Positions 5,101 through 20,604 of a DNA stretch of 20,668 bases are shown one piece after another. The stretch comes from a virus, in IMG/VR virus record IMGVR_UViG_3300030419_004842, positions 40,611-61,278 of that record, one strand, 5' to 3'. Each line of letters begins with the position of its first letter. Within the stretch, counting starts at the first letter, position 1. Below the pieces are notes generated by a model, which saw only the letters and a list, made by a program, of their open reading frames with translations, ran no database searches and was not told where the DNA came from. Both the position numbers and the translations under genes were made by a program.

Positions 5101-5918
5101 GGAAATGTCACCAGTGCGGGATCTGGATCACCGTTTTCATCAACGGCGTCTGGATCTTCTATCAATGTAAGCTGCAAATTACCGGCATCACCACCCCATC
5201 CCATGTTACAGCTAAATTTTTGAACGAGCCCATTAAACATGCGCGCGGGCTGTTCGGCCTTGGGTTTGCGTACAGTGAATGCCACATCCAAGTATGCGTC
5301 CTTATAATTCTCTGTGTCATTGGGTACGTATGTAGCCCTAACAGTAGTCGTTATTGTGCTATCAACCTCGCAATTAAGCTGCGTGCTCTCTGCGCCATCA
5401 ATGTAGTATTTAATACTTCCCTGAGCGTCAGCATCAGATGATACAGTAGCGTTTGTTGAAGCGCTGGGACAATCTGCGTTTCTGAGCAAGTAAAAATCTA
5501 CTTGATTAGGTTCCCAAGTTAATAGTGGATCACCCCGATTAATGGTAAGCGATTGTGAGGCTCTATGTGGGGCTCCCGCAAAAGATATGTTTGTGCCGTC
5601 TACGGATACAGAAGCGTCAGAAGTAGTAAACGTAACCCTAATCTCGTAGTTTCCAGCGTCAAGCTTGTCGCCTGCGCTAAGCGATGTCCAAGTTCCGTTA
5701 TTGTCATATTGATAGGCAAAAGATCCCGGCACTGGTATTGTTCTTGTGTATTTGGTGGTTCTTATGGTTGCGCCCGTATCGTCATCGGTCTCGACCTCGG
5801 TAATTTCCACGCCAGCCACAGACACATCCAGCATGTCCGCAGATATTGTTAGCGGATATGTGATATCGGCGGGCTTGTCCCATCTCAGTAATGGTTTTAG
5901 TGTAGAAGTTACTGCCAT
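2130..5918 (-). CDS. Large baseplate hub-like / tail-tip protein with N-terminal Ig-like domains, 1262 aa
   Basis: The start is the ATG at 5918, 13 bases after the previous stop. Residues 1 to about 127 and about 130-220 are two Ig-like domains of the bacterial MBG/Big_3 style. The first opens LLRWDKPADITYPL and the second GDPLLTWEPNQVDFY. Both carry the Y-x-P-N-D-T-x-x-Y type ending. From about 230 a different region begins, with FNGLVQKFSCNMGWGG and later AVGTACYFLYHGFYFGG, which looks like the start of a hub-type structural core. The C-terminal 170 residues contain RYVWGPWWRWG, VTDMEVSVGAQGSTVKY and SFNTWTPQFGKLAQYN. I associate that block with large structural proteins of big phages. Its length and the order tape measure, small tail proteins, hub fit a tail-tip or baseplate hub. 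No peptidase or lysozyme motif is seen. Confidence 0.75.
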   Translation of the reverse strand: MAVTSTLKPLLRWDKPADITYPLTISADMLDVSVAGVEITEVETDDDTGATIRTTKYTRTIPVPGSFAYQYDNNGTWTSLSAGDKLDAGNYEIRVTFTTSDASVSVDGTNISFAGAPHRASQSLTINRGDPLLTWEPNQVDFYLLRNADCPSASTNATVSSDADAQGSIKYYIDGAESTQLNCEVDSTITTTVRATYVPNDTENYKDAYLDVAFTVRKPKAEQPARMFNGLVQKFSCNMGWGGDAGNLQLTLIEDPDAVDENGDPDPALVTFPAVGTACYFLYHGFYFGGVFQRWTYSEGSSGRSYDVVITTPSSLLDGVKLIVDKFQGTQYTGNKPYDYLFPATYEPSITYGTIEKVSEDYQDRKGLMYESTNDFPTNIFNIFGHLENYMMGGNDPNWSHANAIYNSGPSFGFAWTNEDGINAYDTLELLQAMASTPTGERLKSYGDGWNFGGAGNSTFDKDEKAYRLNHFGGLIRFGDSEYELDLRELINMMDATAAEFDDDTLFGLRRFRVNGPILDCNSLFKEVTELCQYDYFIEVHMSIKDKKWKRFIDNPDYDPDEPEGPENPKEIENPIDGYTRGTALLPNHYQTHDGYAATGVGGNGGGPIGLKIDLAASKLLDDDGNPLPLSGENKRMVVWRTTEDRAVMVVRTMNRQFQPTPGTIHDYILERKRPHGKTVGERSENAQNDVISYDIGGELAQNVTQRLVWGAPASRILDFARDRMYPVWYELADGTPIYDEQVTLADLSATDGNGFPVKSNYHISLPMADGSTYVAVLFELRMALAGQESWETFKCFQIANDSEPNGYVFDGGFWGLGKKGPFVPKVDPRKAVLQKVAQAGNAGWGAPGLAPANMQAQNGDGNALEDIRKRNAAKIFSVVKKCAENFFMKKFMVPLPMEPGGRWNNQKWESDGKMTTTWEIAGSAWADSPPVMSPHFFDDSGRLVNCCAWDDNSRYDYSDLGTSYASPVGAFAQFTMKLPEQIKFPNGVGVWSTKASVQPKLVWDVNEFNIWGKDFEGTLMAYCDSGCHIKDYDQWTTPDFGATTLAKLFYNIDLAPARYIGPTKDQTQLAVPPNPVAPFKFLVAQQSTRYVWGPWWRWGADPETGQAKNGKVEVVADDNLSPETYGGRTLMDYAGRTKTGTNLALFKEQESGSVVLAQFPQWKIGDRFIGAGPYVTDMEVSVGAQGSTVKYSFNTWTPQFGKLAQYNLDRIAQIRRNSIKQAKELSTLRPDAKDIAGVAQHIRNQRFDHVCHNIRLMVWGP

Positions 5919-5931
5919 GAAAATTTATCCA

Positions 5932-6783
5932 TTAAAAAGTTGTAAATGTTGCTGTGCACTTTGCGGGATTTGCCTTGAAGCCATAATCCCACTCAGACTC
6001 ACTAGACACCCCAGCATCGTCCCACGACCAATAATTTCCATCAGTAGACTTAAAACGAGCTTCTACCGATGTTTCGTTGCGTACACCAATCTGTTGCACC
6101 AATCTGGCGGGGTGGTACGTAATAGTTCCATTTGCCTTTTCTGTGGTCGCGTTTTGGCTATATTCTACATCACCCATAATATAAAAATAGGTCTGGGTGG
6201 GCTCCCATCGTAGCCTTGGATCGCCCTTATAAACCTGTATATACTTATGTGTCTCAACCTCGCTTAGTGACACAGTATAAGTTTGGCCGTTAGCGATTTG
6301 TTTGGGGGTAAGCACCTCGGTAGAAATATCAATTTCTTCGGGATCTGGAATGAATTTCGCAGTCACAAGGTGTCCATTTGTAGAAAAAGAGCCGTCTGCA
6401 TCTTGAGTGGCATTTAACTTCACGCCATCGAGAGAAGACACACGAGTAAGATCGCCCCAATGCTGAGCATTTGTGTTTTTATTTCTGCGCCAAAGACCGG
6501 GCGTCGTCGTTGCTGTGAAGCTGGCGTCTTCTATCGTATATACAAACTCACCATCAATGGGTCTCGCCCTAGTAGAATAATATGTGTCCGTACTTATTAA
6601 CGTGTCATTGGCATCTTTTCGCGTTTCTACAGTAGTGAATTTAACGCCTGAAATTGATGCATCCAAAGAACCGTTGGTGGGAGCAAACGGATGTGTTATC
6701 TTAGACGGAGTGTCCCATCCCACTAAGATTTCTGCGGTTACAGCATAGGTTGTTGTGAAGGGTAATACTGGTGGTACTGGCAT
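5932..6783 (-). CDS. Ig-like domain virion protein, 283 aa, related to the N-terminus of the 1262-aa protein
   Basis: The stop of the 549-aa gene and the ATG at 6783 form TAATG, a classic translational coupling junction, so I prefer this ATG to the in-frame TTG at 6798. The protein has two beta-sandwich segments. The first has VGWDTPSKITHPF and a GVKFTTVETRKD stretch; it matches the N-terminal domain of the next gene (WD, P, IT, P, LD, GV, T-VET in the same order). The second, from about residue 186, has GDPRLRWEPTQTYFY, matching GDPLLTWEPNQVDFY of the same neighbour. It is therefore a stand-alone relative of the Ig-like part of the hub-like protein. Its likely role is an accessory tail-tip or baseplate component. 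Ig-like domains in phage virions are often thought to bind cell-surface glycans weakly; that is not shown here. Confidence 0.75.
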   Translation of the reverse strand: MPVPPVLPFTTTYAVTAEILVGWDTPSKITHPFAPTNGSLDASISGVKFTTVETRKDANDTLISTDTYYSTRARPIDGEFVYTIEDASFTATTTPGLWRRNKNTNAQHWGDLTRVSSLDGVKLNATQDADGSFSTNGHLVTAKFIPDPEEIDISTEVLTPKQIANGQTYTVSLSEVETHKYIQVYKGDPRLRWEPTQTYFYIMGDVEYSQNATTEKANGTITYHPARLVQQIGVRNETSVEARFKSTDGNYWSWDDAGVSSESEWDYGFKANPAKCTATFTTF

Positions 6784-8432
6784 TATGTATATGTCCAATC
6801 TAATGTTAAGCTATATGCGCCCGTTTTGGGGTTATAGCTTTCTGTCTTGTTGGTAAGAAACGGCCCATGACCACCGGCGCTTGCGGTAGGCTTATACGCT
6901 TCTGCCACGGTCATAGCCGAAGGTTTAACCGATCTTTTGTTAGACGCCATTACCAAATCAACCGTCACTCCCACGGTTTTTTCTTTGGTAGTTTTCATGT
7001 CCTGAATAACGGGCCCAAGCTCTCTCTCTAAAATAGGCTGGAGAGCGATTATTTGTATATTGTTTTCACTATTGTTGTAATTAACACTAATGGTCTCTGA
7101 AATCACGTCTTCAGCCGGGCTGTATTTTATTTCTAAATCATTATAAGTTACATTATATCCAATCGAACCGCCTACCTTATTGTGCGAAATACTTTCGGCC
7201 ACCTTGAGATCTCGCAGTATTCCGGTGCCACCAGAGTCCTTATATACGTTATTAGCCGCCGCAAACAATAATCCCCTCATAGCATGAAAAGAAGTAAGGG
7301 CCCCATTGTATTTATTGTCGTCTTGATCTAGGGCGGTCTTTGTGCTTAGTCCCTGTATAGTGGCACTCACATTGACACTGGAAGCATCTGCCTGCGGGTC
7401 CGCCTCATAACTAAATTCGATTTCGTGGGTCGCTGAGATCTCTTCCTGACTCAATAACCAAGTATCAGTGACGGAGTAACTCCCTTCCGCCATGTTGTGA
7501 GATATTTGTCTAATATGATTATATGACCCATAATTACTTAGGCCGTTAGCAGACAGCTTCATCCCCAACTCGCTCTGATAATTTACATCATTCATGTCTG
7601 CCGGGGTAAAGCCGCTCGGAAACTCCTTATAGTTTCCCATCATATCTGTTTGAATTTCAGCCATTGGATCAGCAACAAGTCTAGTGGCTACCCATCTAGC
7701 CGCTTGACGAAACGCCTCATCGTTGGCGGTCATTACATTATCAGTGCCCTCATATGTACTTCTTCCCGTCGCGCTAACCGAATGGGTCAATGTGTAGGTT
7801 TTCCTGCTAGACGCCGGAGAATCTGGATCATTGCCCACATAAGATATTTGGCCCTCATTTTGAGATAACTCCCAGTTTTCTTCTATCGAGGCTAAATTAT
7901 ACTTGGGCTGTGTCGCCCTGCCATCAGTAGTTCTCCCATCGTTATTATTAAAGGAAATTTCACGACTGGCTTCAAAAACAAACGTATATTCAGTGTTTTG
8001 AATACCAGCGGTTTCGCCCTGTTCTGGAACCTCAATACTCATTAATTTAGCATCAGCAAATTTGATGTGATTACTTAAGCCACCATAGGGTTTTATTTGG
8101 AGCAGTCCAATAGACTGTGCCTCCTGCTGTTCTCTGGCAAACTGGAGAATGGTCAATACTTCGCCCTGAACGCGGCGCTGTCTCTCGCCCACCTTTAATG
8201 GGTCTTGGTCATCGTCTGCCTGATTCAATATTGCCGTACCGGTCACGGTGATGGTAAAAGTGGACCCAATATTTGTTCCAGCGCCAGTAAAAGTGTTCTC
8301 CCTACTGATAGAATACCGTGGAAATGGACCCAGTATGCCATATGACTTATAGTCGCCGGTGCCATGCTTGGACTGACCACCGATAACTAGCGATACGGTG
8401 GGGGCTGATTTTGTCTGATATGTAATAGCCAT
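6783..8432 (-). CDS. Putative tail or baseplate structural protein, 549 aa
   Basis: The ATG at 8432 lies three bases after the 218-aa gene. Its Shine-Dalgarno GGAG (8439-8442) is inside the last codons of that gene, so translation is probably coupled. Near residues 40-70 it has PRYSISRENTF and then GSTFTITVTGTAI, a beta-rich block I associate with tail or baseplate proteins. Similar strand patterns recur at THEIEFSYEA with SVNVSATIQG, at SIGYNVTYNDLEIKY, and at the end, AYSLTLDWTYT. This suggests a multi-domain beta protein, perhaps with repeated folds. A more helical part around residues 85-115 (RQRRVQGEVLTILQFAREQQ) follows the first domain. No catalytic motif is visible. Its place two genes after the tape measure fits a distal tail or baseplate component; this is inferred from order. 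Confidence 0.7.
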   Translation of the reverse strand: MAITYQTKSAPTVSLVIGGQSKHGTGDYKSYGILGPFPRYSISRENTFTGAGTNIGSTFTITVTGTAILNQADDDQDPLKVGERQRRVQGEVLTILQFAREQQEAQSIGLLQIKPYGGLSNHIKFADAKLMSIEVPEQGETAGIQNTEYTFVFEASREISFNNNDGRTTDGRATQPKYNLASIEENWELSQNEGQISYVGNDPDSPASSRKTYTLTHSVSATGRSTYEGTDNVMTANDEAFRQAARWVATRLVADPMAEIQTDMMGNYKEFPSGFTPADMNDVNYQSELGMKLSANGLSNYGSYNHIRQISHNMAEGSYSVTDTWLLSQEEISATHEIEFSYEADPQADASSVNVSATIQGLSTKTALDQDDNKYNGALTSFHAMRGLLFAAANNVYKDSGGTGILRDLKVAESISHNKVGGSIGYNVTYNDLEIKYSPAEDVISETISVNYNNSENNIQIIALQPILERELGPVIQDMKTTKEKTVGVTVDLVMASNKRSVKPSAMTVAEAYKPTASAGGHGPFLTNKTESYNPKTGAYSLTLDWTYT

Positions 8433-8435
8433 GTG

Positions 8436-9092
8436 TTACTCCAAATATCCATCTGTATAAAAATTGAGGGTGTCGGTAAATGGTGCGCGGATTGAAAGTG
8501 TGATATCGCCACTACCCATATATGCGCCACTAATAGCCAAGTCGGGAACGCCACTGGCCATTTGGTGTTTTATGAACAGCGTCGTTTCCGCGCCAAAATC
8601 TCTCTCTATGTACAGGGGGGCGGTTTGGGTTATACCGCTTTGACATGGTATGAAAAGCGGCATAGTGTTTTGTCCATCAGCAGCCACCACCATGCCCAAT
8701 ACACCACTAGATGTGTCAAAAACCTCCGGAGTAATTTGTAGTGGGATAAGGGCTGTGCCACTTGCCGACGATGGTGACGTTAACACCAGACTAAAGCTCT
8801 GAGCGTGCCCAGAATTAACGGTGCCCGACACAGCCATAGTCTGAATGGCGCTATACATTGTGTACCCAGCTTCAGTCGTACTAATAGGTGGATTAATGTA
8901 TAACGATAAATTTTCGTTTGCGTTACTATTGCCCAACCATAAAGTTAATGGGTTTCTTGGGTCTGACGCTATGTTCAAATCAAGGCTTTGAGTGCCGCTA
9001 GGTGGCCCCTGTGTCTGTAGTGGCATAGAGGAAGCCGCTGGCCCATTAATGACCATAGGTATAGCACCCTGTAAACCACCAACAATAGCCAT
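8436..9092 (-). CDS. Short-repeat beta protein of the virion, 218 aa
   Basis: The ATG at 9092 follows the tape measure stop by 15 bases, with AGGA nine bases upstream. Almost the whole protein is a string of about 15 short units of 10-18 residues, each starting with a strand such as MPLQTQG, LDLNIAS, LTLWLGN, LSLYINP, FSLVLTS, IPLQITP, MPLFIPC, APLYIER, TLFIKHQ, LAISGAY or ITLSIRA. These are separated by loops of Gly, Ser, Asn, Thr and Pro. The pattern is hydrophobic, any, hydrophobic, any, hydrophobic, as expected for stacked beta strands. It has no signal peptide and only one Cys. I recognise this style from uncharacterised phage structural proteins and cannot name a function. Directly after the tape measure, it would most simply be a tail-tip component or spike. 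Confidence 0.7.
   Translation of the reverse strand: MAIVGGLQGAIPMVINGPAASSMPLQTQGPPSGTQSLDLNIASDPRNPLTLWLGNSNANENLSLYINPPISTTEAGYTMYSAIQTMAVSGTVNSGHAQSFSLVLTSPSSASGTALIPLQITPEVFDTSSGVLGMVVAADGQNTMPLFIPCQSGITQTAPLYIERDFGAETTLFIKHQMASGVPDLAISGAYMGSGDITLSIRAPFTDTLNFYTDGYLE
8439..8442 (-). promoter_or_regulatory. Ribosome binding site of the 549-aa gene, inside the 218-aa gene
   Basis: GGAG lies six bases before the ATG at 8432; it covers the last sense codon of the 218-aa gene and the first base of its TAA stop. It supports that start and suggests coupled translation. Confidence 0.65.
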
Positions 9093-9107: not shown

Positions 9108-12100
9108 TTAGGTTCCAGTTGCGTTAAATCCACCAAACCTATTGTCTAGTTCTCTAGTAATCAAATCTGATATGTGGGGAGTGATAGCGTCGGCAATAGA
9201 TTGTTTAAGCGCATCAGTATTGGTAACACTAAATGCCAAACTCATATCGCCCTTAAAGTTATGTGTCATATTGAGGTCACTAAACACATTCTGTAATTTG
9301 GTAATAACGTTATTCAGTGTCGGAAATGCTTTGGTCATGGTGTCAAGCATACCCGCTAAACTGCCGAAATTGAAGCCGCCACCCTGCTTAACGGCACTCG
9401 TGCTGCCATTTTGAAAGTATTTAGCCCCCACTACTCCACCATTATTAAATCCGGGCAGGTTGCCGCGATTAAGTCTACTCATGAATCCAGTGCCATATCT
9501 CTGAACTGCGTCCCGGTTCATAACAAACTCTCCGGGCGTCAGCATGGCTGGGACCGAATCTACTTGACCACCATCTGCAAATCGCTGCCCGTAGCGCATT
9601 TGTAATCGTTGTCGTCTTTGCTGCGCCTTCATGTCAGCCCGCTCAAAGCGATTACGAAACTGCTGAGTAAACTCGGACTTACCGAGCCGTCGCCGTCTTG
9701 CCGCGCCCTTCTCTAGCGCTCGGTCTTTTATTATTTGTTTGGCTTTTTGTTTTTTTCGTGCTTGGCTGATGGTCATACGATAATAAGGTGAATTTGAATT
9801 ATTATAGTGCTTTTTCCTGTACCATTCTGGTTGGTCCCATGCGATTATCCGGTGTCGTTTGTCCCGTTGTTCTTTTGCTCTATCGAAGCTTTCCTGCGAG
9901 CGAAACGCAAATGGCATTCCGCGTGTTTGGGCTGGTTGTGCCGGTGCCTGCCGTGCCTGTTGCGCCTTAAAAAGCGCCTCTTCTCGATTAGCTCTATTTA
10001 TAGCTCTTTGCGCTGCAACATTTCTTGGGTCCTCGGGAATGCCGATACCGGAGACATCTGGCATCTTTCTTTTCGTTGCTGTGGGCTCACCTGCTCCAAA
10101 CATAAAGGGATCAAACGTAGTACCAAGATCAAATGTTTTTTCGATTGGTTTTCTAGTGCGCCGTCGCCCTGCATCCATCCTTCTTTTAGGCAACAGACTC
10201 TTCGGTTCCGGCGGTTCCGGATCAAATAGCTCGATAGGACTAACGCCATGTTGCGACATGCCCTGCGAGGGAATGTCCAGAATATTACGACGCGGTTCGG
10301 GTCTAGAAAAACCGGGACCTTTTGGACTGCTCGGCTTACCTTTTATGAGTCGCTCCAGCTGACTAATTGTCTTAGCGTGTTTACGCCGAGACTCCTCCAC
10401 CCTCGCAGCTCTTTCAGCCGCATCCCTCATCTGCAAGGCTTTCTTGTTCTTTGGATCTAGCTGGAGAACACGCTTCCAGTCTTTTTTCTTCATAGCGTTG
10501 GCCACCTGTATAGCCTTCTTCCTACTTCTGTAGGCCGCTGCTTTGTTTTTGGGGATAACCAAGCCGTCTATAATTACAAACGGCTTCGTAAGATTCCACG
10601 GCTCTTGGAACTTCATTTTTTTTCGACTAAAGTATGGCACCTCTATAAATCCCCCCTCGGCAAACCCGAATGCCTCCATCCAGCTCCCGCGTTTCTTGTT
10701 TCGCTGCATCTCATCATAGGCCTTCTGAACCGCCGGAGTAACCTGTCCCCCCAGCCTCGACGGACCAACCGTTGGCACGGGCGTCTTCGCCCCAAACCCA
10801 GCACGTTTGCTCTTAGAGCTGTGGATACCGAGAAAATCCTGAAGCAGAAGATCGAAACCGACCACGGTTCGGCCAGTCTCGTGACCCGCCCTTCTAATAC
10901 CGGACCCCAGCTTGCCGCCCACATGCTGGTTTACCGGTGTTCCGTCAAAATTCTTTTTGATTCCCAGATATGGGTTAAGAAAATCCGCAAGCATCTTTAT
11001 CCCGAATCCCTTATATCCCGGGCCAGTCCTCGCCTCCGGCATTTGGTATTCTTTGCGTCTTTCTATCTCTTTAGTCGTCGGTATGGGACCGCCTCCAAGG
11101 CTAGCATAAACCACACCACCACTAGCAAAGTTAAACTTTCGTCGCGCAGCTTCCTCCAGTTTCTTCTTGCGTTCTTGCTCCTCCATCCAACGGAGTTTAT
11201 TCATTCTCTTCTGGTACGCATGTTGTTTTGGGCCGATTACATCAGCAAAACTTCTCTTAAACCCGAACGGGTTGAATGATTCGGTTGCCGGGTCTCCGAA
11301 TTCGTTCGCCTTGAGAAATCCCGGCCCTTGGTTTTTGTTCCAGTCTTTGAATCTGAAGAGGCTCAATAGCCCATGATCCGGGCCGTATTTATCCCCCCAC
11401 TCTTCCCACGATGGCCAGAAACGATTTGGGTATTTTCGTCCCCCTACGGTGACCACCTCGGACGCACTGCCACGATGAGTTGGGCCAGAGCTTTTCTTTG
11501 CTCGTTGCCATGTAGGGGTGGGTCTACTTGTTCCCGGCATGGCATCAGGATGTTTTTCGTCATGATAGATACGTGTCGTTTTGTAGCGGGGGACTGTTGA
11601 CTGCCAAAAGCTGCTTTTACCGCCGTCTTGCAGATAAGAAACCCTTCCACCATTAGCAAAGCGCCCCGCATTAATAGCGCTCATCATTCCAACTCCGTAC
11701 TTATCAACAGAACTCTTTTTAATGACAAATTCGCCCGGTGTCAGCATGGCAGGAACTGTATCAGTGCCACGAGGCTTAAATATGGTGCTACCACCACCAG
11801 CTAAATGGATCAGACCACCCATCGCCTTTCCTTCGGCCTCCGCCTTATTCGCCGCTTCCATTACTTTCGTGAGCGATTCAAGAGCCTTAATTAATTTCTC
11901 TTCTTTACTTGTGGCAGTGGCTAGCTGTTTTGCTATCTTGGGATCGAGGCCCATCCTGACGGCATCATCGAAAACCAGTTTTTGTTTCACTTCTTTGCCG
12001 GTCATACCTCCGGCGCCGGGAATCTCAATATCGGCAAGTTTGTCTAACATGCCTACGGTGGCTTGCCTTTGTTCAGGGGACTGGTTCTGGAGAGTGCCCG

Positions 12101-15100
12101 TGGCCACAGCAAACTGTATACCCATAACAGACTTTTGCATCGCCCGTCTTTCTTCTTGTCCCCCTACCACAAAATCCGTAACAAGGCCAGTCAACACTTC
12201 TCGTTTAGCTCTCTCCGCATCAATCTGATCCATCAATCTACCGGCCTTCTCGCTTTGGTTGCCAAGCCTCTTTATTTCTGCGGTAGTTCTTTGAATAACT
12301 ATCTGCATCTTCTTATCTTCTGTCATCAATTTCTTACGAGCATCCGTGCTCAAATTCATATTGTGTCTCTCTTTTTCAATTTCTGCACGACGTTTTTCGG
12401 CGGCCTCTCTCGCAGCCACAGCGCCACCTATGTCGCCAGCTCGAACGCCAACTCCACCCAATGCGGCCTGAGCCCTTTTTCTCTCCTGCCGATCAAGTAT
12501 TTTGCCTATGTCTGCGTCGTCCGCGCCCCTAGCCTTTGCCAGCATCACCTCATTTTTATTTTGAATATCTATCATATTTAGCTCAGCAGCTCTTCTTTTC
12601 TCAAGAACAGCTAACTGATTGTTAAGCGCCCGAGCGTGATTACCAAGGGCCCTATTGACCTCGTTCTGAATTGCAGATAATTTTTTTGCTTGGTCTTGTC
12701 CTATACTTATCAAAGGCTTGAATATTTCGTCGAACTCGTTGGCATCTAGCACTCGGTCGGAAAATGCTTTTTCTACCTGCTTTTGTACTTGCTGTATTAC
12801 ACTTGCAGACTGTTTAGTTGGATCAATACCCACCGATTTCAATATGTCTACTGCACTTGGAGCCTTGTCTCTAGGTCCAATTCTCTTACCCACCAGAAAT
12901 TCTTTCCCCTTAGTAACCAGTACGGCAGTCTCTTTTACTCCCCTCGCCAGCTTGAGAGCTTCTTTCCGCAAGGTGGGTGGAAGATCGGCTATGCTGGTTT
13001 TAAGTTCTCTATCAAACTTCTTCAAATCTCTTATCATTGTAAGATCACCGAGGCCCTGAGCTTGGGTGATACTAAAATCTAAATCTTTATTCTCAATAAG
13101 GGCCTGTTGTCCCTTTAGTTGTTTTTCTCTCTTGGTGTTTGCGTCGGTTACTGCTCCAAAGGCTCTCATAAATTTGCTGCTCGCCACCATTGCTTTTCTA
13201 AAGGATTCAGCGGCCTTAGCAGCCAATAGGTCTTCTTTGATTCTCTTCCTAGTAGCATTAACAGCCTGCTTGGCTGACAGATTAGCCATTTTTAGTGCAT
13301 TTGATCGCCGTTTTTTGGCATCATTGAGTGCCTGTTGCGCGCTCGCTCGGGCTGTCTTATTGCTGACATCAGTACTATCTAGTGTTTCTTGAGCTATACG
13401 AATTTCTAAACTTGATTTTTCCTCAATGGCAGCTATGTTATCCGCTAGAGCTTTTTTGAAACGGGGCATTGCTTTATTCAGCTCAGTAAAATTAGCAGCG
13501 CTACGTATAGCGTCTGTCGCCTTAGCATAGTTAGCTGAAGTGGCTTTAACTTGATCCGACGCCGCTTCCTCCAAAGCCTTGCGCTGCATAAGTGCGGCAC
13601 CAAGAGCTGTACTTGCGTTGATAGCAGCTTGTGTAGATTGGCCGTTCTTCTTTGCAAGATCTTTTAGTTTTTTTTCATCCCCCCCAGTGGCAAGTACTTC
13701 CGCGCTAGTCGCGCCAAGGGTTTTAGCAATTCTGGCTATCTCGGTTACTGATTGCGCGCCCCCTCTAGACACTTCCCTCTTGCCAACTGCTTCACCGGTA
13801 GCTTTTAACCTAAGATCCAACTGCTTTTCTGCCGATAGGCCAGAAGCATCAATATCAGCTAGTGTGTCTTTAAGTTTTTTCTGTGTATTCCTAAGTGAAA
13901 TAAAGCTCTCAATAGTACCGCGAATCGCTTTGATTTCTGCTATTCTAGCATCGCGTGCCGCATCTACCGCATTCGTAGCCATTTTACTTGACTGCCATAC
14001 ACCCATCAATCCCCCAGCTGCTGCACCAATACCAGCACCCAATGGTCCACCGAGCAATGCACCAATCCCCGCCCCCGCCGCTATGAAACTACCAGTTGTC
14101 ATGAGGGCTGTTTTGCCGAACAGCTCGGCTGATTTATGGCGCGCCGCCATCTCGGCTTGCATACTCTTTGTAATCTCGTCCGCGTCTCCACCGCCCTCTT
14201 TTGATATCTTATTTAGTGCGTTGGTCCATTTTTTTCTAGCTTCGTCCGCCATGGCCTTTTGGCTTGCAGAGAGGTATTTTAAGGCGGTCATAGCAACGGT
14301 AACGACAACTAACAGCGCAGAAAATGCACCCCCCACCTTCGAACCCATACTAGCGGCTCTGATATTCGATTGAGTCTCTGCATCTTCTGAGGCCGCAGCT
14401 GCCACATTTGATACGACCAAGTTGGTTAATGTGTTTATGACAGTACCAGCTATTCCAACCATCCCTGTCGCAAATCCAGCCGTTTCATTAATAGCCTGTT
14501 TTGTGGTATCAGAAAGACTGGACATTTGGCTGGTTACAGACGTTACGGCAGCACCCAAGAAAACAAATTGTTGCATAGCCGAAGCGGTGCCACTCACCGC
14601 CTTCGCGGCGTCACGGGCACCACCCGGAAGTTTACGGGCACCAGCTCCAATTCTTTGTCGCGCCGCCTTGCCTGCTTCACCGAAGGGGACTGCTGCCCGA
14701 AGTCCAGTCCCAGCCGCCTTGAATGGTGCCATGGCCCTACCCGCAACCTTCGATCCAACAACGTTACCTCCGGCAGTCTTTGCGGCGGCGCCCAATTTCT
14801 GTGCAAGCGTTTGTCTGGCAGTATTCAGCTGTTTCGCATATTGTAATCCTTCCTTGCTTATGCCACCAGACTGCTTGTGGGCCTGAGCGCCTACTTTTAA
14901 AGCATTATTCATAGCATTTTGCGCCGACATACCAGCTTTTAGGTTTGTCACGTATTGCTTTCGGGCTGCCTCTAAGTGTCGGGCGCTTGGAGAAGTCTCA
15001 ATTATTGCTTGCATTCCAGCGGTCCTTGAGGCCGCGCTCGCCTTTATGTGTGGCGCTGGCACACTTCCTGCGGCACGGGTTTCTGCTACACCCCCCACTC

Positions 15101-18098
15101 TTTCTGCTCCACGCAATTTTCGCGGCGCTGCGATGGCGCCCCCTTGTTTCGGACGCCCCAGCTCATCATGTCGCATTGGGTTCCGGATCACCGCATCGCC
15201 CCTCCGCACTGCTTCTTGCATTCCTACTGCTTTTCCAGTGCCCTTAGCACTACTCATAGCCTTCGTCGCCACATCCATGGCTTTTTCCAGCCTTGCGCCC
15301 GTATGGCCAAGTGCCTTAAAGTGTGCCTCAACTTTATTCTTCTTGATTTGTGCGGCAGTTAGTTGGAGTACCTTACCAACATTAGCCGCATCTTTAGCCA
15401 ATTTTGCGCTCCACTGTGGAACACCCCCCTTCATCTTTAGTCCCGCACCGGTACGACCCGGAATCTGTCCGGGGGTAACATTTGGTGTTATCTTCTTACC
15501 ACCATTAGACATATACTGAACCACACCACCATTAGCAAAGTGCTGTACGCCCGTTTTGTTCATCTTGTTAAGGTTGCTATAGCCAATAGCCTGCGCGGAA
15601 GATCTATTAACTACATATTCGCCCGGAGTCAACATAGCGGGAACCGAATCAACCGCACCGCCCCTGTTAAGCAACTGGAAATCAGCAAACTCCAAAACAG
15701 AGGCTATCTTGTTTTGTATAGAGTTTTCACCAGACGTTGCGCTGCTCGCAGTTCTTTTGGCGTCAGCGGCTATCATTAGATCAACAGCATTGTTCTCTCC
15801 AAACAATTTTTTCAGTCTTGTTTTAGCTGTTTTTGTCAGCTTTGGGAAATCAAAATTAATACCGCCGCCCCCAATCTTGGCAGCGGTTAGTGCACCAATA
15901 ACACCCTCAAGCAAATAACCCTCTAATGTCTCCTGCGCCCCCTCAAACAAGCCATTAAAATTAAAAAGCTTCTGTTCGTCTGCTTTAATGGGGGGAATAT
16001 TTAAATTCTTTACCAGTTCAGATTGAGCAATCTTCTTAACACCAACTTTGAGTGCCGCTCTAGAGGCTTTCTCAAAATCAGGACCGAGGTCTTGCATTAA
16101 TTCGCCCTTGTTGTTCTTGCCGGATATCCCCAGCACATTAAACGGCCCCTTCAAGCTAACGCCAGTGATATCACTTTTCTGTCCCTGAGCGCCCTTGGTT
16201 TTTGAAGTTCTGGAGTTAAGGTATTCCTTCTGGAGTGACTTTTGGGTGGCGGGCTTCATCGCCTTATATGCACTAGCAGTGCCGGGTTTTAGTGTCGATA
16301 TTTTTTTAGTACCATGAAGCCAGTCGCTAAAGCCCTTCGAGGGCGCCCCGCTCTTCCCAACAAGATTCGCCTGTGCGGCTTTAGCGCCCTTTGTGGCCTC
16401 TTTTCTAACTATTTGGGGTATTAGTCTATCTAAGGCGGTTTTTCGGTCGACTTTCCTTCCTTCCGTAGCAAGCGATTCTTTGTCAGCATTCAACGCAAAA
16501 ACACCATAGTTTTGTGGTCGTGTGGCCTGAATTTTGGCTACTCTTCCGCCCTTATTATATCTATTCATAGCGTGAAGACTACTGGCCCCAAGTTTTTGTG
16601 CGCTACTCTTCTTAATTACAAACTCTCCCGGCTGAAGCATCGCCGGAACCGAATCACTATTGCCAACACCCGGAACAAATCCCCCCGTAGAAAATTTATG
16701 AATCTTACCGCCCGTAGCTCTGCCCCTACCGCGACCCATACCCATCATCATACCGAGACCGGGGGCTAGAGCCGAACCAATCTTCATGGCCATCAAAGTT
16801 GTCAACAATGGAATCATCGGCGTCAAGGCGTCCGCTATCTTGATAAACGCCCTCGCCAATTCTAGTGCGCCCTTGGCCACAGACCTAAAGGTAGAGCTAT
16901 CAGCAAAATTACGCATAAGGGCGCTAAACTCTTCTTTAACCCTTGCGGCCTGAACAGCCAGACTTTGCTGTGCAGTAATAGCGTCTTTCGTAACGGAGCC
17001 AGAAGCGGCTTGAGCTACATTCAATGCTTGTTGAGCGGTGGTAAACTGCCTGATCATAGGGATCACTTTACCAATTTGGCGAAAACCACCCAACTGTTCA
17101 ACAATTTGACTAAATCTAAAGTCACGCGGATCTAATCCAGCCAGTCCCTCAGAAAGTCTTCGCACCGCCTCATAGGAGCCAACAAATTGCCCCTGCGCAT
17201 TTCGCAACTCGATGCCTAGCTGTTTAAGCATATCCACCGTTTCAGTACGCTGAATACGTGTAAAAATAGTTCTCAAACCGGTAGCAATGGTTTCTGCCGT
17301 TTCACGAGTAGTGGCTCGCACAGACGTAAACAGAGCTATAAGTTCGTTCACGCTACCACCAGCAGTTTCAAACACACCACCGACACGGCGAACAACAGAA
17401 ATTAAGTCATTAGACTCAACGGCAAACCTTTTAGACACAGCATTAATAGCATCCATCGTTTGCTCAAGAAACTTAATGTCACCACCAGCCCTCTGTGCCT
17501 CAGCCCTGAACTGACGCAATACAGCAATTGCCCCTTCTGTGGTGTTGCGAATGTCATCAAAAGTAGCACCAAGACTTGTCTTAGCTAGAATGTCTAGTGC
17601 TTGTTTGGTCTTCTGAGCAGAGAAACCAGCCTGAGTCAAAATTCTTGAAACGTTAAGCAGGTCACTAGAAGAGGCACCCAAACTTGTAGACAGGCGAGTA
17701 ATTTCTTTTGTTAGTCCTTGTAGGTTTTTAACACTTTTGCCACTAACCTGAGAAATTTTTACCAACTCTCGCTCAAACGAAATAGCTTCTCCAACAGCAT
17801 TTTTCACCGCGTGAGCAAAGGCGAGCATTGTGCCTGTTGCCACCGTAATAACACTAAATCTACGGGCCGCTTCAGAAAGATTTCGATTCAGCTTACCAAC
17901 AGCAGCGGCGGAACCACGGGCACTTTTATCTACATTCCGTAGCTCCTTATTAACCTTAGCCACGGCGCGTGCGTCACCTTTCACCTGAACGTTGGCGGTA
18001 ACGCCCTGTAGCTGCCTCTTTATTTGCCCAACTACCTGACCAACATTACGAGGTGCTTGTAGTTGTAGCTGCGCGGTAAGGTTGAATCGCTCGGCCAT
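9108..18098 (-). CDS. Tail tape measure protein, 2996 aa
   Basis: It sets tail length, fills the tail tube and is usually ejected into the host ahead of the DNA. I choose the ATG at 18098 (MAERFNLTAQ) because GGAG sits five bases upstream; the in-frame TTG at 18113 has no such site. Residues about 105-345 (SFERELVKISQVSGKSVKNL, then LSTSLGASSSDLLNVSRILT and TTRETAETIATGLRTIF) match the phage minor tail (TP901-type) tape measure domain. Four modules with VPAML[TQ]PGE[FY]V lie at about 472-518, 813-858, 2101-2151 and 2843-2888. Hydrophobic segments lie around 1200-1370 and include a glycine zipper at 1336-1368. Residues 1370-2095 are charged, helical and likely coiled coil. Residues about 2152-2842 are unusually basic and Pro-rich. 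No lytic transglycosylase or peptidase motif was found. The end, HNFKGDMSLAFSVTNTDALK, is typical of tape measures. Confidence 0.95.
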   Translation of the reverse strand: MAERFNLTAQLQLQAPRNVGQVVGQIKRQLQGVTANVQVKGDARAVAKVNKELRNVDKSARGSAAAVGKLNRNLSEAARRFSVITVATGTMLAFAHAVKNAVGEAISFERELVKISQVSGKSVKNLQGLTKEITRLSTSLGASSSDLLNVSRILTQAGFSAQKTKQALDILAKTSLGATFDDIRNTTEGAIAVLRQFRAEAQRAGGDIKFLEQTMDAINAVSKRFAVESNDLISVVRRVGGVFETAGGSVNELIALFTSVRATTRETAETIATGLRTIFTRIQRTETVDMLKQLGIELRNAQGQFVGSYEAVRRLSEGLAGLDPRDFRFSQIVEQLGGFRQIGKVIPMIRQFTTAQQALNVAQAASGSVTKDAITAQQSLAVQAARVKEEFSALMRNFADSSTFRSVAKGALELARAFIKIADALTPMIPLLTTLMAMKIGSALAPGLGMMMGMGRGRGRATGGKIHKFSTGGFVPGVGNSDSVPAMLQPGEFVIKKSSAQKLGASSLHAMNRYNKGGRVAKIQATRPQNYGVFALNADKESLATEGRKVDRKTALDRLIPQIVRKEATKGAKAAQANLVGKSGAPSKGFSDWLHGTKKISTLKPGTASAYKAMKPATQKSLQKEYLNSRTSKTKGAQGQKSDITGVSLKGPFNVLGISGKNNKGELMQDLGPDFEKASRAALKVGVKKIAQSELVKNLNIPPIKADEQKLFNFNGLFEGAQETLEGYLLEGVIGALTAAKIGGGGINFDFPKLTKTAKTRLKKLFGENNAVDLMIAADAKRTASSATSGENSIQNKIASVLEFADFQLLNRGGAVDSVPAMLTPGEYVVNRSSAQAIGYSNLNKMNKTGVQHFANGGVVQYMSNGGKKITPNVTPGQIPGRTGAGLKMKGGVPQWSAKLAKDAANVGKVLQLTAAQIKKNKVEAHFKALGHTGARLEKAMDVATKAMSSAKGTGKAVGMQEAVRRGDAVIRNPMRHDELGRPKQGGAIAAPRKLRGAERVGGVAETRAAGSVPAPHIKASAASRTAGMQAIIETSPSARHLEAARKQYVTNLKAGMSAQNAMNNALKVGAQAHKQSGGISKEGLQYAKQLNTARQTLAQKLGAAAKTAGGNVVGSKVAGRAMAPFKAAGTGLRAAVPFGEAGKAARQRIGAGARKLPGGARDAAKAVSGTASAMQQFVFLGAAVTSVTSQMSSLSDTTKQAINETAGFATGMVGIAGTVINTLTNLVVSNVAAAASEDAETQSNIRAASMGSKVGGAFSALLVVVTVAMTALKYLSASQKAMADEARKKWTNALNKISKEGGGDADEITKSMQAEMAARHKSAELFGKTALMTTGSFIAAGAGIGALLGGPLGAGIGAAAGGLMGVWQSSKMATNAVDAARDARIAEIKAIRGTIESFISLRNTQKKLKDTLADIDASGLSAEKQLDLRLKATGEAVGKREVSRGGAQSVTEIARIAKTLGATSAEVLATGGDEKKLKDLAKKNGQSTQAAINASTALGAALMQRKALEEAASDQVKATSANYAKATDAIRSAANFTELNKAMPRFKKALADNIAAIEEKSSLEIRIAQETLDSTDVSNKTARASAQQALNDAKKRRSNALKMANLSAKQAVNATRKRIKEDLLAAKAAESFRKAMVASSKFMRAFGAVTDANTKREKQLKGQQALIENKDLDFSITQAQGLGDLTMIRDLKKFDRELKTSIADLPPTLRKEALKLARGVKETAVLVTKGKEFLVGKRIGPRDKAPSAVDILKSVGIDPTKQSASVIQQVQKQVEKAFSDRVLDANEFDEIFKPLISIGQDQAKKLSAIQNEVNRALGNHARALNNQLAVLEKRRAAELNMIDIQNKNEVMLAKARGADDADIGKILDRQERKRAQAALGGVGVRAGDIGGAVAAREAAEKRRAEIEKERHNMNLSTDARKKLMTEDKKMQIVIQRTTAEIKRLGNQSEKAGRLMDQIDAERAKREVLTGLVTDFVVGGQEERRAMQKSVMGIQFAVATGTLQNQSPEQRQATVGMLDKLADIEIPGAGGMTGKEVKQKLVFDDAVRMGLDPKIAKQLATATSKEEKLIKALESLTKVMEAANKAEAEGKAMGGLIHLAGGGSTIFKPRGTDTVPAMLTPGEFVIKKSSVDKYGVGMMSAINAGRFANGGRVSYLQDGGKSSFWQSTVPRYKTTRIYHDEKHPDAMPGTSRPTPTWQRAKKSSGPTHRGSASEVVTVGGRKYPNRFWPSWEEWGDKYGPDHGLLSLFRFKDWNKNQGPGFLKANEFGDPATESFNPFGFKRSFADVIGPKQHAYQKRMNKLRWMEEQERKKKLEEAARRKFNFASGGVVYASLGGGPIPTTKEIERRKEYQMPEARTGPGYKGFGIKMLADFLNPYLGIKKNFDGTPVNQHVGGKLGSGIRRAGHETGRTVVGFDLLLQDFLGIHSSKSKRAGFGAKTPVPTVGPSRLGGQVTPAVQKAYDEMQRNKKRGSWMEAFGFAEGGFIEVPYFSRKKMKFQEPWNLTKPFVIIDGLVIPKNKAAAYRSRKKAIQVANAMKKKDWKRVLQLDPKNKKALQMRDAAERAARVEESRRKHAKTISQLERLIKGKPSSPKGPGFSRPEPRRNILDIPSQGMSQHGVSPIELFDPEPPEPKSLLPKRRMDAGRRRTRKPIEKTFDLGTTFDPFMFGAGEPTATKRKMPDVSGIGIPEDPRNVAAQRAINRANREEALFKAQQARQAPAQPAQTRGMPFAFRSQESFDRAKEQRDKRHRIIAWDQPEWYRKKHYNNSNSPYYRMTISQARKKQKAKQIIKDRALEKGAARRRRLGKSEFTQQFRNRFERADMKAQQRRQRLQMRYGQRFADGGQVDSVPAMLTPGEFVMNRDAVQRYGTGFMSRLNRGNLPGFNNGGVVGAKYFQNGSTSAVKQGGGFNFGSLAGMLDTMTKAFPTLNNVITKLQNVFSDLNMTHNFKGDMSLAFSVTNTDALKQSIADAITPHISDLITRELDNRFGGFNATGT
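9435..9572 (-). repeat. Tape measure VPAML module, copy 4
   Basis: FADGGQVDSVPAMLTPGEFV, then MNRDAVQRYGTGFMSRLNRG, closing with NNGGVVGAKYF. It lies about 105 residues before the C-terminus and ends the basic, Pro-rich region. Confidence 0.85.
9573..11645 (-). other. Basic, Pro-rich region of the tape measure protein (about 690 residues)
   Basis: Between VPAML modules 3 and 4 the coiled-coil pattern stops. The segment is rich in Arg, Lys, Pro, Trp, Phe and Tyr, with pieces such as WPSWEEWGDKYGPDHG, KRRMDAGRRRTRK and ARKKQKAKQIIKDR. Two FAxGG half-modules lie inside (near 11111-11130 and 10651-10660). One short piece, KKKDWKRVLQLDPKNKKAL, looks like part of a TPR helix pair. Confidence 0.6.
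11111..11130 (-). repeat. 20-base repeat in the tape measure gene, copy A
   Basis: It encodes the FASGGVV half-module and matches the bases at 15521-15540 in 19 of 20 positions. The close match at DNA level suggests recent copying or gene conversion between modules. Confidence 0.6.
11646..11798 (-). repeat. Tape measure VPAML module, copy 3
   Basis: AGGGSTIF, then TDTVPAMLTPGEFVIKKSSV, then GMMSAINAGRFANGGRVSYL. It marks the border between the coiled-coil region and the basic, Pro-rich region. Confidence 0.85.
13994..14093 (-). other. Glycine-zipper hydrophobic segment of the tape measure protein
   Basis: Residues about 1336-1368 (numbered from the ATG at 18098) read GSFIAAGAGIGALLGG and PLGAGIGAAAGGLMGVW, with Gly or Ala every three to four positions and no charge. 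Such zippers pack membrane helices. In tape measures, hydrophobic stretches of this kind are thought to help form a channel across the inner membrane during DNA entry. Confidence 0.7.
15521..15540 (-). repeat. 20-base repeat in the tape measure gene, copy B
   Basis: It encodes the FANGGVV end of VPAML module 2. It differs from copy A by one base. A shorter version occurs at 11645-11659 in module 3. Confidence 0.6.
15525..15662 (-). repeat. Tape measure VPAML module, copy 2
   Basis: RGGAVDSVPAMLTPGEYVVN, then a short helix with NLNKMNK, closing with FANGGVVQY. A further GG follows seven residues later. Confidence 0.85.
16545..16685 (-). repeat. Tape measure VPAML module, copy 1
   Basis: A glycine pair (TGGFVPG), then DSVPAMLQPGEFVIKKSSAQ, about 20 residues, then NKGGRV. 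Q replaces the T that follows PAML in the other copies. It lies right after the N-terminal tape measure domain and a hydrophobic Met/Gly-rich stretch. Confidence 0.85.
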
Positions 18099-18117: not shown

Positions 18118-18146
18118 AAAAAATGGGGAAACTATGGAGTTTCCCC
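18118..18146 (-). terminator. Intrinsic (Rho-independent) terminator before the tape measure gene
   Basis: On the minus strand GGGGAAACT (18146-18138), loop CCAT, then AGTTTCCCC (18133-18125) form a perfect nine-base-pair stem with a four-base loop. It is followed by A and six T (18123-18118). This is a textbook intrinsic terminator, lying 20 bases before the tape measure ATG and 32 bases after the stop of the 332-aa gene. It should end much of the transcription coming from the chaperone-like genes and so lower tape measure mRNA, unless the phage antiterminates or restarts downstream. Confidence 0.8.
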
Positions 18147-18170: not shown

Positions 18171-18180
18171 ATACACAATT
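18171..18180 (-). promoter_or_regulatory. Shared 10-mer AATTGTGTAT in the gap before the tape measure
   Basis: The ten bases AATTGTGTAT begin within the stop codon of the 332-aa gene and lead into TATAAT (18173-18168), a perfect -10-like hexamer. No TTGACA-like -35 box stands 16-18 bases upstream. The same 10-mer occurs in the gap before the 324-aa gene. It could be a phage promoter element or an RNA processing site. A promoter here would run into the terminator about 25 bases later, which speaks against a simple promoter. Confidence 0.3.
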
Positions 18181-19177
18181 ATTGTGCACTTTTGGCATCT
18201 TTAGTGTTTCTTTTGGTACGCTTCTGAGGCTTATTCTCTGCTTTTAAGGCATCTTCCTCTTCTTCAGAAGCCTCTTCTTTGTTAGATTCCACAATAACGG
18301 GCTTACCGTCGTCGTCTAGGAAGGGCTTTCTTTCCTTAAGTGAGAGCTGAATCCACTCTTCCTCGCCCTCATCATTTGTTACAGCCACAACCTCTTCACC
18401 ATCTCTATTGACGAAATATACCTCTTCTGGGTCTTGTTTTTCAGCGCCCTCTGGGGTCCGGTAGGCTATAAATCTGCCATCCTCATTAACAAGCCTACCA
18501 TCAGCGTCTACCAAGTGCCCATCATTATTAATAAACTTGAGGTCTTCATTAACAAAGCTAAATTCTTTTAGGAATTTGTTTTCTTCAAGATTATTGTCAT
18601 AGTTGGGATCTAATCCGTAAATCATATTGGCGAGTTCAGCAGAAGCCTCGCTTACCCACGGTTGAGTAGCATTAGCATCATATGCTGCCTGTTCAGGGAA
18701 ACAAGGCTGCTTCGTATCCGGATTGAGAATACATAGCCTAACCAACTCCGAGAATCTAGCATTGTCTGCCTGACCTTCCGCTGAGTTGGAATCGAGCGCA
18801 TTTCTTTCGGCAAGAAAGTCTCTAAAGTCTTCTCGTAAATTCCTCAATTCCAGCGCCACATCTTTGGCCTCTGAAAGCCTAATGCCACCCCCTTTGAGGA
18901 GGGCTTCTTTTTTGCTGATATCGTCCACGAATTTATCGTGCTGCTTTTGTTTTTCTTCGTTCCATATTCCCTGCTGCTCCATGTAGTCTGTGAGCTTCTG
19001 TCTCAACAGGGCGCCAGAATCTAGGGCGCTTCTAAATGCCTTATTGTATTCAACCTGTGAATCCCTATAGTGCTGTGCCGTAGGCTGAATAACAATCACC
19101 TTAACCGGATTGCCATCATTATCCGTGCTGTTAATTTCTCGTTCCTTGTCATCAATGCTTTTTTTCTTATCCGTCAT
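18179..19177 (-). CDS. Putative tail assembly chaperone-like protein, 332 aa
   Basis: It lies directly before the tape measure, where tail assembly chaperones are normally encoded. The ATG at 19177 overlaps the 127-aa gene by 11 bases, and GGAGAAG (19184-19190) inside that gene is six bases upstream. Residues about 40-150 form a helical domain with Y44, A47, A51, G55, W72 and the motif ALDSNSAEGQADNA (127-140). The same residues occur at the same numbers in the 347-aa protein. Residues about 211-238 are four seven-residue units (EDLKFIN, NDGHLVD, ADGRLVN, EDGRFIA). Further DG turns follow (VNRDGEEVV, FLDDDGKPV). The tail is acidic (EEASEEEED) and then basic (KPQKRTKRNTK), probably disordered. 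The chaperone role rests on position and domain style, not on a characterised homologue. Confidence 0.7.
   Translation of the reverse strand: MTDKKKSIDDKEREINSTDNDGNPVKVIVIQPTAQHYRDSQVEYNKAFRSALDSGALLRQKLTDYMEQQGIWNEEKQKQHDKFVDDISKKEALLKGGGIRLSEAKDVALELRNLREDFRDFLAERNALDSNSAEGQADNARFSELVRLCILNPDTKQPCFPEQAAYDANATQPWVSEASAELANMIYGLDPNYDNNLEENKFLKEFSFVNEDLKFINNDGHLVDADGRLVNEDGRFIAYRTPEGAEKQDPEEVYFVNRDGEEVVAVTNDEGEEEWIQLSLKERKPFLDDDGKPVIVESNKEEASEEEEDALKAENKPQKRTKRNTKDAKSAQ
18464..18547 (-). repeat. Four tandem seven-residue DG repeats in the 332-aa protein
   Basis: Four units in exact register: EDLKFIN, NDGHLVD, ADGRLVN, EDGRFIA. The consensus is acidic/Asn, D, G, any, hydrophobic, V/I, polar. 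This suggests short strands joined by DG turns. Two looser copies (VNRDGEEVV, FLDDDGKPV) follow. Confidence 0.75.
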
Positions 19178-19550
19178 TATCGTCTTCTCCTTTAGGTTTA
19201 GATACTGGTAATGAAATAAAATGTTTTTTTCTGACTATTTCATAGTTAAGAAATTCCGATTCCAAGCTCCTTATCTGTGTGTTGCCTCGATCTAGTATTT
19301 GGGCTCTCGCCTCTTCATATATTTCGTGAATATGTTTTTGTTCTGGTGTTTTTTCTTCCTCTGTATTGCCAAACCCCCATAAAAACCCAAAGCTTTCTTC
19401 AAGTGTTGATAGAGCGCCAATCATTGTGGTTTGAATTTTTTTCTTTGCCGCTTTAAACAATTGGTTCCGAGACATATCCTTGCGGCGGCTTTCCCTAATG
19501 GCTTTTAGGTCGAGTGATTTTTTTAAAAATGCTTCATATTCCTGTGTCAT
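19167..19550 (-). CDS. Small helical protein upstream of the tape measure, 127 aa
   Basis: The ATG at 19550 has GGGAG five bases upstream and begins ten bases after the 347-aa gene. The protein is charged and almost wholly helical in pattern. A first helix-rich part (FLKKSLDLKAIRESRRKDMS) is followed by AAKKKIQTTMIGALSTLEES. A hinge holds FGFLWGFGNTEEEKTPEQ. A second helical part is IYEEARAQILDRGNTQIRSL. The C-terminus is acidic, and its last codons carry the ribosome site of the 332-aa gene. I do not recognise a named family. Between two chaperone-like genes and before the tape measure, it may be part of the same tail-assembly complex. The frame relation to the next gene is +1, with no convincing slippery site. 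Confidence 0.65.
   Translation of the reverse strand: MTQEYEAFLKKSLDLKAIRESRRKDMSRNQLFKAAKKKIQTTMIGALSTLEESFGFLWGFGNTEEEKTPEQKHIHEIYEEARAQILDRGNTQIRSLESEFLNYEIVRKKHFISLPVSKPKGEDDNDG
19184..19190 (-). promoter_or_regulatory. Ribosome binding site of the 332-aa gene, inside the 127-aa gene
   Basis: GGAGAAG lies six bases before the ATG at 19177 and within the last codons of the 127-aa gene. Together with the 11-base overlap it points to coupled translation rather than a frameshift fusion. Confidence 0.7.
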
Positions 19551-19560
19551 GTTTTTCTCC

Positions 19561-20604
19561 CTATTTGCTCTTGATCTTATTGATCTGAGCTTGAGTATTT
19601 TGCAAGGCTATTTCTTGCTGCACATCTGCAAATTTTGTAAAATTAATGGAACCAGCTTCCTCAATCTGTTTATTTCTTTGTTCCATAATGGCCCTAGAGT
19701 GAGGATGATTAAGGTCCAAGATTTCCTGAACTGCCTCTTGGCTATCCGCCATTAGAAAAACTTCTTGCGAATTGGCAATCTTTGGATTGTTGGTAAGTTT
19801 GTCAACTTCTTGCTGTTTTTTCATTTTTTCTGCTTCCCTTCTTTGTACAACGAACCATCCGTCCAAGCAATCATCGTCATCAATGACCTTCTCTTTCGGC
19901 GTATCTGAGCTTTCATAAACCGAATCATACATGGAAGAATAAGAGCAAAGATTAGCTTGGTCTCTGGTTATGTCACAGGCCAGCCCGCCAAATAGATTTG
20001 TACCCGATTTGCCCAAACTCCACATTGGTCTCCAAGGATGAGATCTAGCTATTTTTCTCATGTCAGAATGATCAATGACTTCTCCTGCATACTTATCCAT
20101 AACCGTAGAGATAGAATACTTGCCCCACTGATAGTCGCTTCCATCTTTATTTTTTGTGTTGGTGGAAATCAACCATGTTTTTTGAGCGAAACTAGCGATA
20201 CCCTCACATGTTGTGTGATCTAATATCGTTTTTTTCATCTTAAAGCCCATCATTTTTTTTTCCATCGCCCTAATGTAAGACTTAATTCCGCGCAACTTTC
20301 GAGGATCATAAAAAGACTTAAAAGCCTCTACTTTTAGATCGTCGATCTGTTTCTCTATCTTGTCAGCCTCTCTATCGTCATGGGGAGACCACATCTCATG
20401 AGCCAGCAAGATTTCAATTATCTCACTCTTTACAAAAACGCCCTCGAAATACGCCTTTTTATACGCTTCATCGTATATCTCAAAAGACTCTTCGAGATCG
20501 TCTCTGCTGGGCTCCTGTATAAATAAAACAAGATCGCCTAGCTTTAAGCGTAGACGACCTTGTAATATTCTATACAGAAGTTTTTCATAGTATATATCGT
20601 CCAT
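19561..20604 (-). CDS. Putative tail assembly protein, 347 aa, paralogue of the 332-aa protein
   Basis: The ATG at 20604 gives MDDIYYEKLLYRILQGRLRL; AGG is adjacent and GGA lies seven bases upstream, so the site is weak. The frame happens to stay open upstream to the window edge, so a longer start cannot be excluded. Residues 40-150 are helical and share Y44, A47, A51, G55, W72, D81, K82, I87, R112, F121, L128, D129, E134, G135, A137, A140 and L145 with the 332-aa protein, without any gap. The second half has no counterpart there: it holds HPWRPMWSLGKSGTNLFGG, then DDDDCLDGWFVVQRR and a helical tail with NSQEVFLMADSQEAVQEI. No catalytic motif is seen. I infer a tail-assembly chaperone or adaptor role from the paralogy and from its place two genes before the tape measure. 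Confidence 0.65.
   Translation of the reverse strand: MDDIYYEKLLYRILQGRLRLKLGDLVLFIQEPSRDDLEESFEIYDEAYKKAYFEGVFVKSEIIEILLAHEMWSPHDDREADKIEKQIDDLKVEAFKSFYDPRKLRGIKSYIRAMEKKMMGFKMKKTILDHTTCEGIASFAQKTWLISTNTKNKDGSDYQWGKYSISTVMDKYAGEVIDHSDMRKIARSHPWRPMWSLGKSGTNLFGGLACDITRDQANLCSYSSMYDSVYESSDTPKEKVIDDDDCLDGWFVVQRREAEKMKKQQEVDKLTNNPKIANSQEVFLMADSQEAVQEILDLNHPHSRAIMEQRNKQIEEAGSINFTKFADVQQEIALQNTQAQINKIKSK

Follow-up and report, generated by a model that had tools for sequence, protein, structure and literature searches.

In the analyzed window, which spans 20,668 bases at one terminus of a virus record of 61,278 bases, two genes preceding the tape measure gene are, as judged from family profiles and predicted structures, diverged copies of one ancient domain. 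The two proteins, A and B, probably act as a two-gene version of the gpG/gpGT tail-assembly-chaperone (TAC) system. All genes concerned lie on the minus strand and are transcribed in the order A, C, B and tape measure gene. The ORF of gene A (347 aa) occupies 19561-20604, gene C (127 aa, defined by its ORF and family alignment) 19167-19550, and the ORF of gene B (332 aa) 18179-19177. The first 11 nt of B lie within the end of C, and the median C-B overlap in related loci is 11 nt as well. The domain shared by A and B covers residues 25-161 of both proteins, encoded at 20122-20532 in A and 18695-19105 in B, each delimited by hhalign against the family of the other. The gene directly after B was identified as the tape measure gene (9108-18098, with its ATG at 18098) by a PF10145 match (E 4.2e-29) at record positions 57698-58318, corresponding to 17088-17708 of the window, and the same order was read in relatives. 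A predicted intrinsic terminator (18125-18146, minus strand) lies between B and the tape measure gene.

The relationship of A and B was analyzed at the sequence level. A previous sequence-only reading had listed 17 residues as identical at the same numbers in both proteins, and all 17 were confirmed. Over residues 40-150, the zero-offset diagonal displayed 18 identities and a BLOSUM62 score of +55, compared to at best 12 identities and a best score of -47 at other offsets. The gapped local score of 80 was matched by none of 2000 shuffles, and BLASTP of A against B with composition adjustment gave E 7e-05. Family profiles were then built from 54 A members and 49 B members, and hhalign aligned them with a probability of 98.3% and E 2.6e-14 over 137 gapless columns (residues 25-161). 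When the comparison was restricted to residues 40-150, all 111 of 111 columns aligned at E 1.2e-14 (hhalign), whereas a control over residues 25-161 with the B columns reversed gave E 0.83. Seven residues (P32, Y44, W72, D129, E134, G135, and A137) exceeded 60% in both families, and the conservation profiles of A and B correlated best at zero offset. Chance similarity or convergence of helical bundles, as the A/B pairwise identity of only about 17-22% might suggest, is therefore extremely improbable and already refuted by the gapless profile match, the reversed control, and the conservation tests.

The ancient paralogy that had been proposed for the N-terminal domain was thus borne out by profiles and predicted structures, and its gapless register by profiles and the equal helix numbering of the models. 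Similarity was present across the proposed extent of residues 40-150, but this start was too late, since the domain actually begins at about residue 25. The halves after about residue 150, described earlier as unrelated, indeed gave profile E-values of 0.011 (residue 151 to the end) and 0.3 (residue 190 to the end). The C-terminal half of A is helical and carries a conserved DDDDCLDGWFxxQRR segment, and that of B is acidic and DG-rich. In a tree of 269 sufficiently distinct domains (133 A and 136 B sequences), all A sequences were separated from all B sequences with a support of 1.0, indicating that the duplication took place before the sampled genomes diverged. Apart from A and B, the loci showed no further paralogue other than fragments in a single locus (L096).

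Gene C belongs to a strongly conserved family of 120-135 aa with the motifs TTMIGALST..FGFLWG and ILDRGNTQIR. No convincing match to C was detected in Pfam, PHROGs or the phage collection. Its profile did not match those of A and B, and the idea that C carries the domain a third time was rejected on this basis.

The structures of A and B were predicted by AlphaFold2 with mean pLDDT values of 89.1 and 89.6, respectively. Both models place a strand at residues 24/25-30 and helices at 34-53, 59-68, 74-96, 101-124/131, and 133-149, so that the helix positions, compared by residue numbering, are equal in A and B. The shared fold would consist of a beta-hairpin followed by helices, and a long helical hairpin at about residues 59-131 is present in both models. 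For the B model, the top match by VIA was HK97 gp13 (2ob9), with Z 9.3 and an rmsd of 4.2 over 95 of 107 residues; the next-best Z was 7.9, and 9.3 is a modest value for a helical protein. Foldseek assigned the same match a probability of 0.90, the maximum of its list, and a TM of 0.56 by target, and ranked it second by E-value with E 0.33. The other structural matches of B were generic coiled coils aligned mainly to the hairpin at 58-132. The match list of the A model contained no TAC, an absence that is not evidence against the fold, and annotated TACs occurred among the weak viral fold matches of both models. Since only B matches 2ob9 and the other matches are generic, the fold evidence is suggestive, and for B only.

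Related loci were then collected. A scan with B alone yielded 17 loci. Profile scans of IMG/VR returned 325 and 361 relatives, 80 of each being kept; the 361 were relatives of B from one scan, and the lineage is present on hundreds of environmental contigs. The order A-C-B was conserved in all 166 related loci, near-duplicates included, and the A profile matched the B ORF in 166 of 166. Five more loci came from metagenome-assembled genomes labelled as unrelated bacterial groups. These were taken as misbinned phage contigs, and on this reading the five bacterial labels do not identify the host. In the phage genome collection, searches with A, B, C and the structural protein encoded upstream gave sub-threshold pieces but no relatives.

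In the relatives, a protein of about 345 aa is encoded directly before A. Of its 35 members, 17 weakly matched phrog_985 ('virion structural protein'), and from its sequence we take it to be the major tail (tube) protein. The upstream half of the slot is accordingly less certain, as the tube identity depends on this reading. A-C-B is flanked by the probable major tail protein gene on one side and the tape measure gene on the other, which is the TAC slot, as in HK97. There the layout is major tail subunit, gp13 with its -1 frameshift product, and tape measure. HK97 uses one gene and a -1 frameshift extension, whereas two full genes and no frameshift signal were found here. An annotated putative terminator also stands just before the HK97 tape measure gene, and the predicted terminator of the window is at a like place. 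Ten large, possibly incomplete records of relatives contained no match to the tail sheath (PF04984) or to baseplate J (PF04865). The lineage comprises large, uncultured, aquatic phages, probably with non-contractile tails.

Several other features of the lineage were recorded. Three contigs (L129, L140, and L150), for which no terminal repeats are reported, were 223-238 kb long, which brings some members close to the size of jumbo phages. The large terminase of one relative (L087:1255-3237) shared about 26% identity with those of the Bacillus phages Slash, Stahl, and Staley and the Microcystis phage MaeS, and no closer match was present in the phage collection. The rest of the record (positions 1-40000; L084 and L085) presumably contains replication genes and, beyond them, a long array of genes that read as glycosyltransferase-like and nucleotide-sugar-like. 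Two large ORFs about 900 bases apart (L084:5375-6967 and L084:7895-9448) look to us like pieces of one DNA polymerase III alpha subunit, and an intein, an intron or a split gene is possible.

Known TAC families were searched for A and B. The comparison to the HK97 gp13 profile was not significant (E 0.13 and 0.53), and short stretches aligned to gp13 at the expected places, the beta-hairpin and D..KQP.F, with E of only 0.017-0.13. PF06894 did not match A or B. The TAC families of Pfam and PHROG likewise gave no match to either protein, a result compatible with distant membership, and the curated families gave no convincing one. PF12322 was detected in none of seven records, including that of the window, under conditions in which T4 as a positive control yielded both of its genes. 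A sequence search of the PDB with the profiles returned chance-level matches only, one of them a short alignment between A and a designed TIM barrel. Sequence homology of A and B to either HK97 gp13 or T4 gp26/gp51 was rejected, as no comparison was significant. The earlier description of the domain as chaperone-like is thus supported indirectly, by the adjacency of the tape measure gene and by the fold match of B to HK97 gp13, but not by a sequence profile link.

Compared to a TAC of the gpG/gpGT kind, the locus has the slot, with its upstream half less certain, and two forms with a common domain. A profile match to a known TAC and a -1 frameshift were not found. The protein sizes count against the TAC reading, as A and B have 347 and 332 aa versus 128 aa for HK97 gp13, and the pair includes no bare short form.

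The -1 frameshift producing gpG and gpGT is widely conserved in long-tailed phages, with T4 as an exception (PMC5009743). In lambda, the two parts have separate partners, the tape measure for the G domain and the tube protein for the T extension, and the ratio of the two products is critical (PMC5009743, PMC4493119). Signals of frameshifting and dosage were surveyed in the A-C-B loci. No slippery heptamer was conserved in common across the loci, the -1 frames were closed before or just after each stop, and the frame of C relative to A varied among loci. Frameshifting from A to C, from C to B or beyond B was rejected, based on the variable relative frames and the closed -1 frames. Instead, A, C, and B each have an ATG start and their own Shine-Dalgarno-like sequence. 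The longest Shine-Dalgarno match usually measured 5-6 nt in front of B and 3-4 nt in front of A, although such a match is a rough expression guide only and some A starts are possibly misplaced.

The predicted terminator is strong and of textbook form and consists of the hairpin GGGGAAACT-CCAT-AGTTTCCCC followed by ATTTTTT, with a predicted energy of -14.3 kcal/mol. Hairpins after the B stop are conserved in the relatives, and terminator-like hairpins were present at this place in 53 of 126 loci compared to 2 in shuffles. No such hairpin was found by this survey where C and B meet. The median folding z was -2.64 for the 60 nt that follow the B stop, compared to -0.27 inside B, and values lower than -2 occurred in 60% of loci at the former place and in 10% at the latter; the shuffles behind these values kept base composition and not dinucleotides.

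Duplicated chaperone genes have a precedent in T4 gp26/gp51. Like A and B, these are a paralogous pair near the tape measure gene without a frameshift, and they provide two chaperone forms, as is proposed for A and B. The same BLASTP test that was applied to A and B gave E 2e-06 for gp26 against gp51. Both T4 proteins belong to PF12322, whereas A and B have neither this domain nor a profile match. T4 is contractile and its two genes are transcribed divergently; A and B are co-directional with a third gene between them, each exceeds 330 aa, and no sheath was found in the relatives. In light of a paralogous pair without frameshift and without a PF12322 match, the A/B module would work like the T4 solution, with homology not demonstrable. 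Short and long chaperone genes are also reported for some T4-like phages in PMC10274946, citing Vladimirov et al. 2022. The suggestion that the module is unusual holds in part: frameshifting is the route of most long-tailed phages, but the paralogous gp26 and gp51 of T4 are an earlier case of two genes (PMC10274946). In phage TP901-1, tails require two chaperone products, gpG and gpT, one of which is credited with recruiting the tube, and the two are made by a frameshift at GGGAAAG (PMC4493119); the resemblance of A and B to this pair is one of description.

It is rather unlikely that only B is a TAC and that A, while keeping the domain, has been turned to a different task, for example capping the tube or processing the tape measure. 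HK97 gp13 was indeed listed for the B model alone, and the mean within-family identity of the shared domain is 0.52 for B and 0.29 for A. However, A and B were never found apart and always had the same order in the 166 loci. The divergences of A and B are also correlated (r 0.76), a value that genome co-ancestry alone can cause.

We also consider it unlikely, at a low probability, that A and B belong to the structure of the tail or neck, perhaps as components of the tail tip or initiator with a common domain, rather than being chaperones that leave the particle. Both are larger than usual TACs and have long conserved C-terminal halves, both are located among virion genes, and their functional counterparts in T4 (gp26 and gp51) carry the annotation of baseplate hub proteins. 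On the other hand, genes for tail-tip proteins normally follow the tape measure gene, and region 2130-9092, after the tape measure gene, encodes other large proteins. The slot between the probable tube protein and the tape measure is the one used by the TAC of HK97, and the fold match of B is a TAC.

For the preferred TAC reading, the following mechanism is proposed. A and B, probably as a mixed oligomer, would use their shared domains to coat the tape measure of roughly 3000 aa and maintain its solubility. B adjoins the tape measure gene and has the stronger Shine-Dalgarno match, and would be the gpG-like major form. A adjoins the major tail protein gene and has the weaker match, and would be the gpGT-like minor form. 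We infer these roles from gene position and Shine-Dalgarno strength. The C-terminal half of A may recruit tube subunits to the tape measure, and both A and B would be released during tube polymerization. The A:B ratio would be set by ribosome-binding strength, not frameshifting, and the terminator after B would hold tape measure transcripts below chaperone transcripts. C would be the third conserved factor of the module. The paralogy, the constant gene order, the lack of a frameshift signal, the hairpin, and the Shine-Dalgarno difference are observations, and the chaperone activity, the mixed oligomer, and the partners of the C-terminal halves are inferred in this model. As a more tentative suggestion, which we regard as possible but somewhat doubtful, the lineage may have independently replaced frameshifting with an A-C-B module that combines a mixed A/B oligomer, partner-binding halves, a C subunit, and dosage by ribosome-binding sites and a terminator.

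If the proposal is true, gene duplication would be a second, unrelated-looking route to two chaperone forms. Selection would then keep the requirement for two forms rather than the frameshift itself. Furthermore, functions would be named for three genes in an environmental phage lineage.
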